From positions 1 through 64,000 of the forward strand of contig NZ_JACJQY010000024.1 in the NCBI RefSeq assembly GCF_014696925.1: a stretch of 64,000 nucleotides of DNA, written 5' to 3'. The DNA is from Phormidium tenue FACHB-1050 (lineage in GTDB: Bacteria; Cyanobacteriota; Cyanobacteriia; Pseudanabaenales; Pseudanabaenaceae). Position 1 is the stretch's first letter, and the number at the start of each line of letters is the position of its first letter. Made by a program: the position numbers and the translations under genes. Below the pieces are notes generated by a model. That model saw only the letters and a program-made list of their open reading frames with translations. It was not told the DNA's origin and made no database searches. Below are positions 3,036 through 51,209 of the stretch, one piece after another.

Positions 3036-3977
3036 TCATCTTATGAAACGCCCAAAAATCAATTTAACGAAGAAAGGATAACGGAAAAAGATTTTGCCTA
3101 ATCCACTGACAATCCATTGGCGTAAACTAATGATCGCCACAGGCAAATATGGCTCTACTAAAGACTCAAGGGTAACGATGAAGCTATTTGCCCTTGCCTC
3201 GATAGGTATAGCAACTCTGATCGTAATCCAACAAAAAATTAAAATGATAACTACCGCGATCGCCACCAGTTGAAAAACTTTACTTTCTAGAAGACCGAGT
3301 AAATTTGTGAAAAATTTCTGGCTAGATTTTGGTAGCGATGGCAAGGTCAGATTGAGTTTGGAATAAATCCACCAAATCATTAAGACCACAATCGGAGCAG
3401 CGCTCGCCATCGCCCAGCATTGATTAGATAAATAAGCAGTTAAATCGGCTGAGAAACTAAATCTTTTCCCCAGATTTTGCAACGGATCACACCATGTGAT
3501 TGTTGTTGTAAAAGATACAGTGGCGATCGCAAATGGACGTAATTTTTGCTCAACATAATCAGTGATCGCAGTTAAAAATTGCCGCGAAATTTGACTAACC
3601 ACAAAACTATGGGTCATTAAAATGCGATCAGCGCGAGGATGATACAAGATCTCTTCACAAACCTTTTGACTAAGATCGCCATCTATATGTATCAAAGTCC
3701 GCAATATGAGTGAATCTGTCTCTGTCGTAGACAAATTACCCAAACTACCAATTTTATCTGTGTAATAAGTCCAAATGGCGATCGCCCCTTGTCGTTTTGC
3801 TGCCATGCCCACACTAGAGGCTAATACTTTTAGTAAGTCCCGACTATTAACTCTATAAATAATCTCATTAGCCTTAGCTAAACCCTTTGTATCCAGATAA
3901 ATCTGGTCAATAACAGTGGGATTTAGCCACAAACTAATTTCGTCATCAATAACAGCCAACCAATCAGGCATAGCCAC
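3036..3977 (-). CDS. Unknown membrane protein, DGD-motif paralogue C
   Basis: I do not recognise this 313-residue protein. The N-terminal 185 residues look soluble and helical; two clear membrane segments follow at about 190-207 and 234-256, and a hydrophobic stretch near the C-terminus may make a third. The soluble part contains LRTLIHIDGDLSQKV (DGD at 99-101) and a histidine 22 residues later (H123). The same spacing occurs in the gene at 4989-5432, and a related motif occurs in the gene at 4100-4948, so the three look like divergent relatives. This one would be the membrane-anchored member. The cluster order and shared strand suggest they act together. Confidence 0.6.
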   Translation of the reverse strand: MAMPDWLAVIDDEISLWLNPTVIDQIYLDTKGLAKANEIIYRVNSRDLLKVLASSVGMAAKRQGAIAIWTYYTDKIGSLGNLSTTETDSLILRTLIHIDGDLSQKVCEEILYHPRADRILMTHSFVVSQISRQFLTAITDYVEQKLRPFAIATVSFTTTITWCDPLQNLGKRFSFSADLTAYLSNQCWAMASAAPIVVLMIWWIYSKLNLTLPSLPKSSQKFFTNLLGLLESKVFQLVAIAVVIILIFCWITIRVAIPIEARANSFIVTLESLVEPYLPVAIISLRQWIVSGLGKIFFRYPFFVKLIFGRFIR

Positions 3978-4099
3978 CTTAACTATAAATTATCTGAATT
4001 TATAAAGCTTCGTCTCATGGGGACGTAACTTTATAAATTTGAGTTTGGAATTAATTATGTTTATCTACTTACTTAACGGCGCAAAGCGTTGCCACATGA

Positions 4100-4948
4100 T
4101 TATTTTGGTCGAAATTGCATCAAGTCTTTGACCAGACTGACGCAAGTTAGGATCAATCCTGACCATTGTTTCTCCGCATTTTCGACCGCTTGATGGTGCA
4201 AATCAAAAACCAACTTTGCCATCTTTGGATCAATTTTGCTTCTAGCTGGTACAAATAAATCATCCAAAAATCGATTGGTCAAATCACCATCAAGTTGAAA
4301 CCTAGTCTGAGCATAGACACGTTCACCATTCAAAATTGATTGCTCAAATTCCCATAACTTGCGGAAGTAACGAATCATTGGCGCATCAGGAATTATTCTT
4401 CCTTCGGCATCCTTAGCAATATCTAATTGCAATACCTTGTCCGCTAGTTCCTCATAACAAGCTTGTTCAATCTCAAATTGTTCCTTTTGCCTAGGATCAG
4501 TCAAATTTTGACGATTGTTAAAAGATCGCTCTGCTCGTTTATAAATTTCTAAATCACGGTTATATCGATCAAGTTCAGTCTGAGAAGCTGCCGATCCTTG
4601 CTTTTGCAGTTCCTTACTACGGTCAAGGAGAGATCTTCTGATGTCTTGCAGCCCCTCCTCTGTTTTGTACATGATGTTTTCAAGCAGATCAGAGTAAAAC
4701 TGTCTTGCATCAAATCTGGTGATTGGAATGTGGCTGACAATCATGGTGTTGACTTCCAACACCGTAATTTCTTCTAAAACATCTTTGATCGTTTCTCGAA
4801 ATTTATTAAGGGTAGTACTTTCACCAGCACCATCTTTCTTTGTCGGTGTTGCAGGCTCATTATTGTTAGCAAGTTTTACGCGCCCAGATTTGATCCGAGT
4901 CGGTTCATTTTCGGCATTAACTTTGTTGTTTGTAGCCAGATCTTGCAT
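4100..4948 (-). CDS. Unknown coiled-coil protein, DGD-motif paralogue B
   Basis: This is a 282-residue soluble protein of no family I recognise. Residues 1-45 are polar and probably disordered. Residues 48-70 (KFRETIKDVLEEITVLEVNT) resemble residues 27-46 of the next upstream gene product. Residues 85-180 are strongly charged helix, likely coiled coil. Residues 213-252 carry QTRFQLDGDLTNRF (DGD 220-222) and a His pair at 251-252, like its two neighbours. It reads as the neighbour domain split by a long coiled-coil insertion. The upstream gene ends 40 nt before its start, so the two are probably co-transcribed. Confidence 0.6.
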   Translation of the reverse strand: MQDLATNNKVNAENEPTRIKSGRVKLANNNEPATPTKKDGAGESTTLNKFRETIKDVLEEITVLEVNTMIVSHIPITRFDARQFYSDLLENIMYKTEEGLQDIRRSLLDRSKELQKQGSAASQTELDRYNRDLEIYKRAERSFNNRQNLTDPRQKEQFEIEQACYEELADKVLQLDIAKDAEGRIIPDAPMIRYFRKLWEFEQSILNGERVYAQTRFQLDGDLTNRFLDDLFVPARSKIDPKMAKLVFDLHHQAVENAEKQWSGLILTCVSLVKDLMQFRPK

Positions 4949-4988
4949 ACAGATTCCCTTAGCGACAGGTCGAATAAATTAGACAGGA

Positions 4989-5432
4989 CTAGACTCGACT
5001 GAGAAAGCGATCGCTGCTACTGAAATCAACCGCATCTTCTGTCTCTGGCTCACTTTCTCCATTTAACAAACCTGTTACCTTTTGTCCAATATCGACTAGA
5101 GTTTTGAGATTATTGGCGATCGTCTCTGCACCCTTCTCCACTTGAATCTCATGGAAGCCACGTAGCTCTGCATAGGGAGAACCCTGCAAAAAGTCTGCTC
5201 CCAACTCATTTTCAATATCACCATCAATCAGATTAATCGTTGTTTTTAAGCGATTACCTGCTCTATGGGTCATATCACCTTCATGGGCTACCCAAGTCAC
5301 AATTTCTAACTGTACAAGGTCAGAGAATATCTCTACCAAAGCATCACCGAAGTTTTTGGTTTCTTTGAGCTTACTTTGAAAACGTACTGACGCTGTGGCT
5401 GTAACGGATACCGAAGAACTTGCATACGTCAT
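4989..5432 (-). CDS. Unknown small protein, DGD-motif paralogue A
   Basis: This 147-residue protein appears to be the minimal form of the domain shared by three adjacent genes. It has an amphipathic helix with a LEIVTWVAHE end (42-51), then TTINLIDGDIENEL (DGD at 70-72), a His at 94 and a helical C-terminal half, then an acidic tail. There are no cysteines, signal peptide or membrane segment, so it is cytosolic. It is first in the likely three-gene run 5432 to 3036. Its function is unknown. Confidence 0.6.
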   Translation of the reverse strand: MTYASSSVSVTATASVRFQSKLKETKNFGDALVEIFSDLVQLEIVTWVAHEGDMTHRAGNRLKTTINLIDGDIENELGADFLQGSPYAELRGFHEIQVEKGAETIANNLKTLVDIGQKVTGLLNGESEPETEDAVDFSSSDRFLSRV

Positions 5433-5632
5433 AACTAATACCTATAAGAATTTGAATGATTTCTGAGTCAAGGCAAATGGCTAGCTAAAATATTAATCAC
5501 TTAAACAATAAACTTTATTCACAATAAAGTATTTTATAAATCAATTTTTATAAATATCTTATAAATTAGTTTGAGCCAAAGTAACTTAAGCCACTTGAAT
5601 TTAATATTCATTAAACAGGCATTAAAGCAAGT

Positions 5633-49526: not shown

Positions 49527-51209
49527 ATGAACATTTTGCGTAAAAGTTTTCAGAAGACATCTCTATGTCTTCTCGCAGCAACTCTGACTACTGCTTCTTT
49601 TCTGAATACTATAGAAGCGATCGCGGCTCCATCTGTTCCTCAAATCGTCGCCCAAGCCCCACAAGGCTGGCAAACAGGTGTGCAGTTATTGCGCTTGCTT
49701 GACAACTCTGGCAACCTTTCAAGTATTGGCATTTTATTAGACATTGCCAATAAGCCTTCGACAACCTACGCGAATGCGGTATATCAACTTTATGTCAGAC
49801 GTGCTGGAGAATGGCGCGAAGTTTATACCAACTCAGGTGCAAGACTACTTTCCAAAAATGCAGGACGACAATCCGCTTTTGTGGAAGTGATTCCTTTACG
49901 CCTGTTGAGCGAAAAAATTTCGCTTGACGATATCTATAATGGCGATCTTAAGGCAGTGACTAGCGTGCGCTACGATCAGTCCAATGGCTTAAAAGATGCC
50001 AGATTTGAGATCGAAGAAATCAGATCCTTTACTTCAATTATCACAGCTAGCGCTTCTGAGGTAAGTTCTGGACGTATTTCTTCGATATACATTAATACAT
50101 CGAATAATTCCTCAAATAACTCATCGAACAATTCCTCGAATAACTCATCGAACAATTCCTCGAATAACTCATCAAACAACTCCTCAAACAATTCAGGACT
50201 TTCTGATCGCGATTTGGGAATTACAACTTCTTCTCAATCAACAAGTTCACAGTCTAGCCAAACCGTAGTTGTGCAAACTACCAATGTCCAGACTGGTAGC
50301 TCTGTTAAACCGATGAAGCCTATCGTTGTCTCTAGAAAAGATGACGATGACGACGACGATGATGATGATCGCCGCTCGAATCGTCAAGATCGCAAGGATC
50401 GTGATGACGATGAAGATGATGATTATGATGACGATCGCCGCTCAGATCGGAAGGATCGCAAGGAACGTGATGGCGTTGAGCTATCAAGAAAGAATCCTCA
50501 TCGTGGGCATTTCAGTCTCGCTGTTTTGCAAAATCAGCCCCGTTTGTCTCAGGTGATTACACGTCTTTCGATCAGATCAAAGCGTTCTAATGGATTTCTC
50601 ACAGAGCGATTCGTCGGTGATTATCGCTTTAATATTAATCAGCGTGCGACCTTTATCCGTGGTCTCAATCCAGGCGATCGCCTAATTGTGCGTTTATTCG
50701 ATTTGAATAATCGTCCCCTAGGCTATAGCGAAGTGCAATTGCTCAAAGACTTCTCAGCTATCAGCTTGATTTTACCCAGCGATCCATCCGCCTATGGAAC
50801 GTTAAGAACTGTATGTGGTATTGATTCTAAGCGTGTTGGTAAGATCGATAAGAATGTCAAAGTCTATGACTACTTCACTCAAATCCAATCGACCAATGTT
50901 CTCAATCAAACAGTTGCTCGTTTTCTGACAACATCGCAAGGTATCCCCATTGGGTTGTTTAATGTTGCTGGGCTACCTCAAGCAACTAATCAATTCACCT
51001 ATACCAACGCTTTTTCCAAGGGGACTTACTCGCTAATTAATCGCACGATTAATATGTTCACTCAGGATATGCCTCCTGTGATGCAAGTGTTACCAGGGCA
51101 GTTAGCTTCTATCATTCCGATTACTAACTCGCAGTCTACATTTGATGTAGTTCGCAAGATTCTAGATTACAAAGATTTGCGTCCAAACGGTATTTCTACC
51201 TTGTTTTAA
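49527..51209 (+). CDS. Secreted low-complexity protein
   Basis: This 560-residue protein has a Sec signal peptide (to about 34). A first domain (about 40-175) has strands and conserved aromatic residues. Next comes a run of Asn-Ser repeats (about 191-222), a Ser/Thr/Gln stretch, and a charged segment in which a block of Asp, RRS(N/D)R and DRKDR occurs twice (about 272-320). The C-terminal 240 residues form a second folded region that I do not recognise, with one conserved-looking Cys in RTVCGID. It is probably periplasmic or surface-exposed; the acidic tract could bind calcium or other cations. Confidence 0.75.
   Translation: MNILRKSFQKTSLCLLAATLTTASFLNTIEAIAAPSVPQIVAQAPQGWQTGVQLLRLLDNSGNLSSIGILLDIANKPSTTYANAVYQLYVRRAGEWREVYTNSGARLLSKNAGRQSAFVEVIPLRLLSEKISLDDIYNGDLKAVTSVRYDQSNGLKDARFEIEEIRSFTSIITASASEVSSGRISSIYINTSNNSSNNSSNNSSNNSSNNSSNNSSNNSSNNSGLSDRDLGITTSSQSTSSQSSQTVVVQTTNVQTGSSVKPMKPIVVSRKDDDDDDDDDDRRSNRQDRKDRDDDEDDDYDDDRRSDRKDRKERDGVELSRKNPHRGHFSLAVLQNQPRLSQVITRLSIRSKRSNGFLTERFVGDYRFNINQRATFIRGLNPGDRLIVRLFDLNNRPLGYSEVQLLKDFSAISLILPSDPSAYGTLRTVCGIDSKRVGKIDKNVKVYDYFTQIQSTNVLNQTVARFLTTSQGIPIGLFNVAGLPQATNQFTYTNAFSKGTYSLINRTINMFTQDMPPVMQVLPGQLASIIPITNSQSTFDVVRKILDYKDLRPNGISTLF
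50097..50190 (+). repeat. 12-bp tandem repeat coding Asn-Ser repeats
   Basis: About eight units of the form TC(A/G)AA(C/T)AA(C/T)TC(A/C) alternate in pairs, giving SSNN repeats. A 24-bp pair is repeated almost exactly. Slippage would change the linker length in steps of four residues. Confidence 0.9.

Follow-up and report, generated by a model that had tools for sequence, protein, structure and literature searches.

Three adjacent cyanobacterial genes encode probable paralogues of one DGD-turn domain, one of them with predicted membrane helices

Introduction

Three genes that lie side by side in a 64,000-nucleotide stretch of Phormidium tenue FACHB-1050 DNA (the window) raise the question of whether their products are divergent copies of a single domain and, if so, what such a set of proteins might build. 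An initial annotation had proposed that they are paralogues of an unnamed domain and had suspected a defence, toxin or stress role. What is new here is the family and its architecture; function is not part of that claim. A domain common to all three, a gene order that persists in several bacterial phyla as well as in archaea, and the lack of a named family together amount to conserved cell biology that has gone unread, for which the trio offers a defined and testable set of one membrane anchor plus two soluble proteins, in genera that include laboratory strains.

Gene organization and the DGD turn

The three open reading frames are present as initially annotated, all on the minus strand. Gene A (4989-5432, 147 aa), which stands alone or duplicated upstream of B in relatives, encodes a minimal DGD-domain protein that is acidic, with a net charge of -11. 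Gene B (4100-4948, 282 aa) encodes a DGD-domain protein with a helical insertion. Gene C (3036-3977, 313 aa, GTG start), recognized by its reading frame, its profile similarity to B and its membrane segments, encodes a DGD-domain protein with predicted C-terminal membrane helices. On this strand, no gap upstream of the trio exceeds the A+T-rich intergenic stretch at 5433-5632, which, judging by its size, likely holds the promoter of A-B-C.

The DGD motif starts at residue 70 of A, 220 of B and 99 of C. The corresponding turns are encoded at 5217-5225 (residues 70-72 of A, between strands 2 and 3) and 4283-4291 (residues 220-222 of B), as placed by AlphaFold (AF2) models and conservation, and at 3675-3683 (residues 99-101 of C), as placed by conservation in relatives, again all on the minus strand. 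None of 20,000 composition shuffles yielded DGD[IL] in all three proteins at once. The longer motif initially read around it, T/R-x(2-3)-I/F-x-L/I-DGD, matches literally in C only, since A has one residue more before DGD and B has fewer between the Thr and the Phe. The LE(V/I)xT stretch is indeed shared, as LEIVT and LEVNT in A and B, and the reported downstream His is found 22 residues after DGD in A (H94) and C (H123) and 29 residues after it in B (H251). H123 is not the first His after the DGD of C, yet it is the conserved one.

Among relatives, the Gly of DGD is invariant (85/85 A, 59/59 B and 46/46 C), and the His is kept in 85/85 A, 59/59 B and 43/46 C. The spacing from DGD to His is 22 residues in 82 of the 85 A proteins and 22-23 in 42 of 43 C proteins. 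Among the 59 B proteins, 39 have a spacing of 22 or 24, so that the 29 residues seen here are a local insertion of Pseudanabaena-type B proteins. Both Asp residues of the motif can be replaced (by E, N, Q or K) while the Gly and the distant His persist, and we accordingly read DGD from these alignments as a presumably structural tight turn between strands 2 and 3 rather than as a catalytic acid pair. A ligand site, and with it a binding or enzymatic role, is conceivable for the invariant Thr, His and Asn.

Predicted folds and membrane segments

The AF2 model of A, with an overall pLDDT of 76 that rises to about 90 or higher over residues 41-110, comprises a helix at residues 28-39, strands at 41-47, 61-67 and 73-77, and a second helix at 89-123, so that the core spans residues 28-123 (about 5064-5351, minus strand). 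In the model of B (pLDDT 85), a helix at 45-60 and a strand at 63-70 are followed by an insertion at residues 81-206, strands at 210-218 and 223-227, and a helix at 241-277. The insertion, placed between strands 1 and 2 (4331-4708, minus strand), is helical and 126 residues long, and its length differs among relatives. Outside it, the predicted order is common to A and B: helix, strand, strand, DGD turn, strand and long helix. The two models thus agree in their core, where unrelated folds would have spoken against the proposed kinship.

Within the trio, hydrophobic segments occur in C only, at residues 186-205 and 225-262 (3192-3422, minus strand; Kyte-Doolittle, 19-residue window), in line with the two membrane helices initially ascribed to one of the proteins. 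Relatives behave similarly, as such segments are found in 57 of 61 C proteins, 2 of 104 A proteins and 1 of 71 B proteins; in one archaeal C, no segment rises above the hydropathy threshold. The picture of minimal, extended and membrane-anchored versions encoded together therefore holds, with a bare A, a B carrying the helical insertion and a C carrying the membrane segments.

Many cyanobacteria possess a second copy of A with a long tail, in open frames of 352 to 1,944 residues, although none is encoded in this window. Where measured, the tail contains 17-38% Asp plus Glu and 1-5% Lys plus Arg; acidic low-complexity tails of this kind are seen, for example, at loci L129 (1835-7666) and L117 (5878-8637).

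Profile comparison of A, B and C

Profiles for the three proteins were built from 46-85 sequences and compared with hhalign; earlier profiles at genus level had been too shallow to decide, and the deeper alignments changed the result. B and C are the closest pair (E 2e-6, probability 89.5%), followed by A and C (E 2e-4, probability below 70%) and by A and B, the weakest pair (E 1.5e-3, probability 16-35%), which nevertheless align in register from the DGD to the long helix. Counted over first-sequence columns, the scores are 51.4 for B-C, 35.7 for A-C and 29.0 for A-B, against shuffle maxima of 19-20; for each pair, 0/150 column shuffles came up to the real value, although this null is generous because column shuffling removes secondary-structure periodicity. 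A reversed-profile control for A-B gave 23 versus the observed 29, which indicates that the A-B relationship rests partly on structure. YbaB, taken as an outside family through the same procedure, scored only 11-14. Moreover, B proteins of more than 20 species are direct hits of the C profile, with E values of 1e-3 to 1e-7.

All pairs hence align beyond every shuffle around the DGD turn, and the predicted fold adds to this for A and B. Divergent paralogy of one domain, as initially suggested, is the most likely relationship between A, B and C. That the domain belongs to no named family is likewise upheld, as Pfam, NCBIfam and PHROGs contain no profile match above the curated cut-off. Neither the window proteins nor their distant relatives gave a convincing match in Pfam, NCBIfam, PHROGs, PADLOC or PDB sequences; a sequence search of solved structures returned nothing convincing, and Foldseek found no PDB match below E 0.2. 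We found no published description of the trio in the open-access literature, where such unnamed genes are hard to search.

Distribution and inheritance

Within 38 genomes of the same cyanobacterial order, A is found in 27, B in 30 and C in 25, and their positions adjoin one another; across the whole phylum (386 genomes), A occurs in 32 and B in 31. A scan retrieved 73 loci from Pseudanabaena, Nostoc, Anabaena, Moorena, Symploca, Spirulina, Xenococcus and others, together with one Nitrospirota MAG and one Methanosarcinales MAG. Further searches located A in three Nitrospirota and five archaeal genomes, and A, B and C follow in that order in all three of the former and four of the latter. On Azospirillum megaplasmids, A and B are accompanied by a third gene in the position of C that has a DGD and a hydrophobic segment.

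The neighbourhood search that the initial annotation had called for extends well beyond this genome: in 76/76 loci inspected, those of Nitrospirota and Azospirillum among them, the detected members share a strand and follow the order A-(A')-B-C. The complete A-(A-)B-C set is present in 61 of these 76 loci, the rest being broken by contig ends or having one member missing or undetected. Gaps within the trio are short, and B and C frequently overlap. The trees of A, B and C give the same major groups, with distance correlations of 0.79-0.86, and the trio thus seems to be inherited as one unit, although vertical inheritance alone would suffice for such congruence. In one archaeal locus (L276, 4120-6816), the trio is preceded, at a distance of about 2.6 kb, by a gene of tubulin/FtsZ-like appearance as judged by eye.

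Proposed architecture

We propose that A, B and C form a self-contained three-subunit module, a membrane-tethered hetero-oligomer of related subunits, and we assign this reading a probability of roughly 0.6. Behind it stand the paralogy seen by profiles (for A and B also by predicted fold), the conserved gene order, the co-inheritance and the restriction of membrane segments to C; the complex itself and its tethering role are what we infer from them. Each subunit would be a copy of one ancestral alpha-beta-beta-beta-alpha domain, with A as the bare domain, B modified by the insertion between strands 1 and 2, and C fixed to the membrane by its C-terminal helices. The related domains may pair with each other to give the hetero-oligomer, which C would hold at the membrane as a tethering platform. 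In the many cyanobacteria that have it, the second A could reach into the cytoplasm through its long acidic, putatively disordered tail and recruit or space partners there. More tentatively, the trio may represent an undescribed ancient complex of Bacteria and Archaea, in which three subunits, homologous members of a single new domain family, tether something large in the cytoplasm (the nucleoid or an injection machine, for instance) to the membrane; we consider this wider reading possible, at clearly less than even odds.

Likeness to YbaB/EbfC

One specific form of tethering would link the membrane to the nucleoid. The domains would then be distant relatives of YbaB/EbfC (PF02575), and C would fix DNA-bound A and B at the membrane, for example in replicon or nucleoid positioning. 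This proposal draws on structural comparison with VIA-align, in which YbaB-family chains make up four of the top five matches to A (Z 4.8-5.5, over 64-81 residues of 80-92-residue chains) and align with B over 89-91 of 91-94 residues, spanning the B insertion (Z 6.2-6.6). Nearly the whole YbaB chain can thus be superimposed on A and B, with the same predicted alpha-beta-beta-beta-alpha order, but Z values under 8 are common among unrelated folds, and Foldseek rates the likeness at E about 2. In addition, the sequence profiles do not follow the structures. Compared by hhalign with YbaB sequences of the same phylum, the trio scored 14.4, 11.9 and 10.9, values equalled by 17, 37 and 40 of 100 shuffles, and PF02575 is absent from the Pfam matches at E<=0.1, both for the window proteins and for every member of the three alignments scanned. 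Membership of YbaB/EbfC, which the structure lists had suggested, is therefore rejected at the sequence level; we record a resemblance of fold but do not class the trio as YbaB. The DGD turn, the conserved His, the helical insertion, the membrane-anchored paralogue and the strict three-gene order are all foreign to YbaB, and 57 of the 59 genomes sampled, the present one among them, carry a separate, true YbaB.

The nucleoid link also receives some encouragement from Azospirillum, where HTH-ParA and ParB genes lie directly upstream of the megaplasmid trio in 3/3 records inspected (L222, 5874-9916; L223; L224). However, ParA/ParB partition modules adjoin the trio in Azospirillum and nowhere else examined, the trio has no ATPase, and the acidity of A sits poorly with DNA binding. 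We thus regard a nucleoid tether as unlikely and return to the membrane-tethered module without specifying its cargo.

Co-occurrence with contractile injection systems

The trio might instead be an accessory part of extracellular or thylakoid-anchored contractile injection systems (eCIS/tCIS; PMC8894136, PMC8213781), serving for example in docking or firing control at the membrane. With Pvc16_N taken as the marker of an injection system, matches occur in 15 of the 31 trio genomes versus 24 of 355 others (odds ratio 13, Fisher 7e-9), in statistics that ignore phylogeny and genome size; the Nitrospirota trio genome likewise has two Pvc16 genes. An injection system is probably present in our genome too, given its two Pvc16_N genes, but these lie on contigs 2 and 47 and the trio on contig 17. 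No recurrent eCIS neighbour emerged among the 35 loci clustered, and in cyanobacteria the resemblance amounts to statistical co-occurrence of genes that are not co-located and are often present alone: roughly half of the trio genomes lack Pvc16, and 18 of the 25 Pvc16 genomes in the cyanobacterial family with most matches lack the trio. Adjacency is seen on one archaeal contig, from a Methanosarcinales MAG (L279, 16943-17197), in which the gene next after an eCIS cluster and two DUF4157-type genes resembles A. This contig stops inside the A-like gene, so that B and C are not visible there, and B was not found in this partial genome. The archaeal case is thus one contig end, and we find an injection-system accessory quite improbable. 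The eCIS co-occurrence and the Azospirillum ParAB adjacency are retained as leads only.

Genomic neighbourhood and remaining alternatives

The suspicion of a defence, toxin or stress island module can appeal to the patchy occurrence of the trio in cyanobacteria (31/386 genomes) and to the Uma2 gene nearby. The accessory location on which it was founded does not withstand comparison, however. Around the trio in Pseudanabaena, ebsA (named by its match to NF045587), an 87-aa gene and an ABC substrate-binding protein are present in 11/11 loci, GH19 and AAA genes in 9/11 and a Uma2-like gene in 7/11. Such retention of neighbours across the genus argues for a stable chromosomal place rather than an island, and no widely recurring partner gene was found among the loci examined outside Pseudanabaena. 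PADLOC gave only a partial match to one profile (E 0.0034, 14 bits) in one of six proteins, PHROGs gave no match to the trio proteins, no conserved catalytic motif was recognized, and no linkage to defence genes repeats itself. A viral origin was also considered and rejected, as phage records and viral contigs (three scans) contain no relatives; a BFVD fold search returned nothing below E 0.06, and plasmid relatives were found on Azospirillum megaplasmids only. We therefore abandon the defence reading as highly improbable.

Least probable of all is that three unrelated proteins acquired a DGD beta-turn by convergence and are kept together by operon function alone, for although the motif by itself is short and the hhalign probabilities of A-B and A-C stay below 70%, the shuffle nulls are exceeded, the C profile matches B directly, A and B have the same predicted topology, and the invariant Gly and His lie at matching spacing.

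The window also contains repeats. A 21-bp tandem repeat at positions 828-960 codes for QESLRAE, the heptad-like tail of the Uma2-like protein, the GH19-domain protein (1733-2998) has about four N-terminal repeats of about 55 residues each, and a 12/24-bp tandem repeat is located at 50098-50195.
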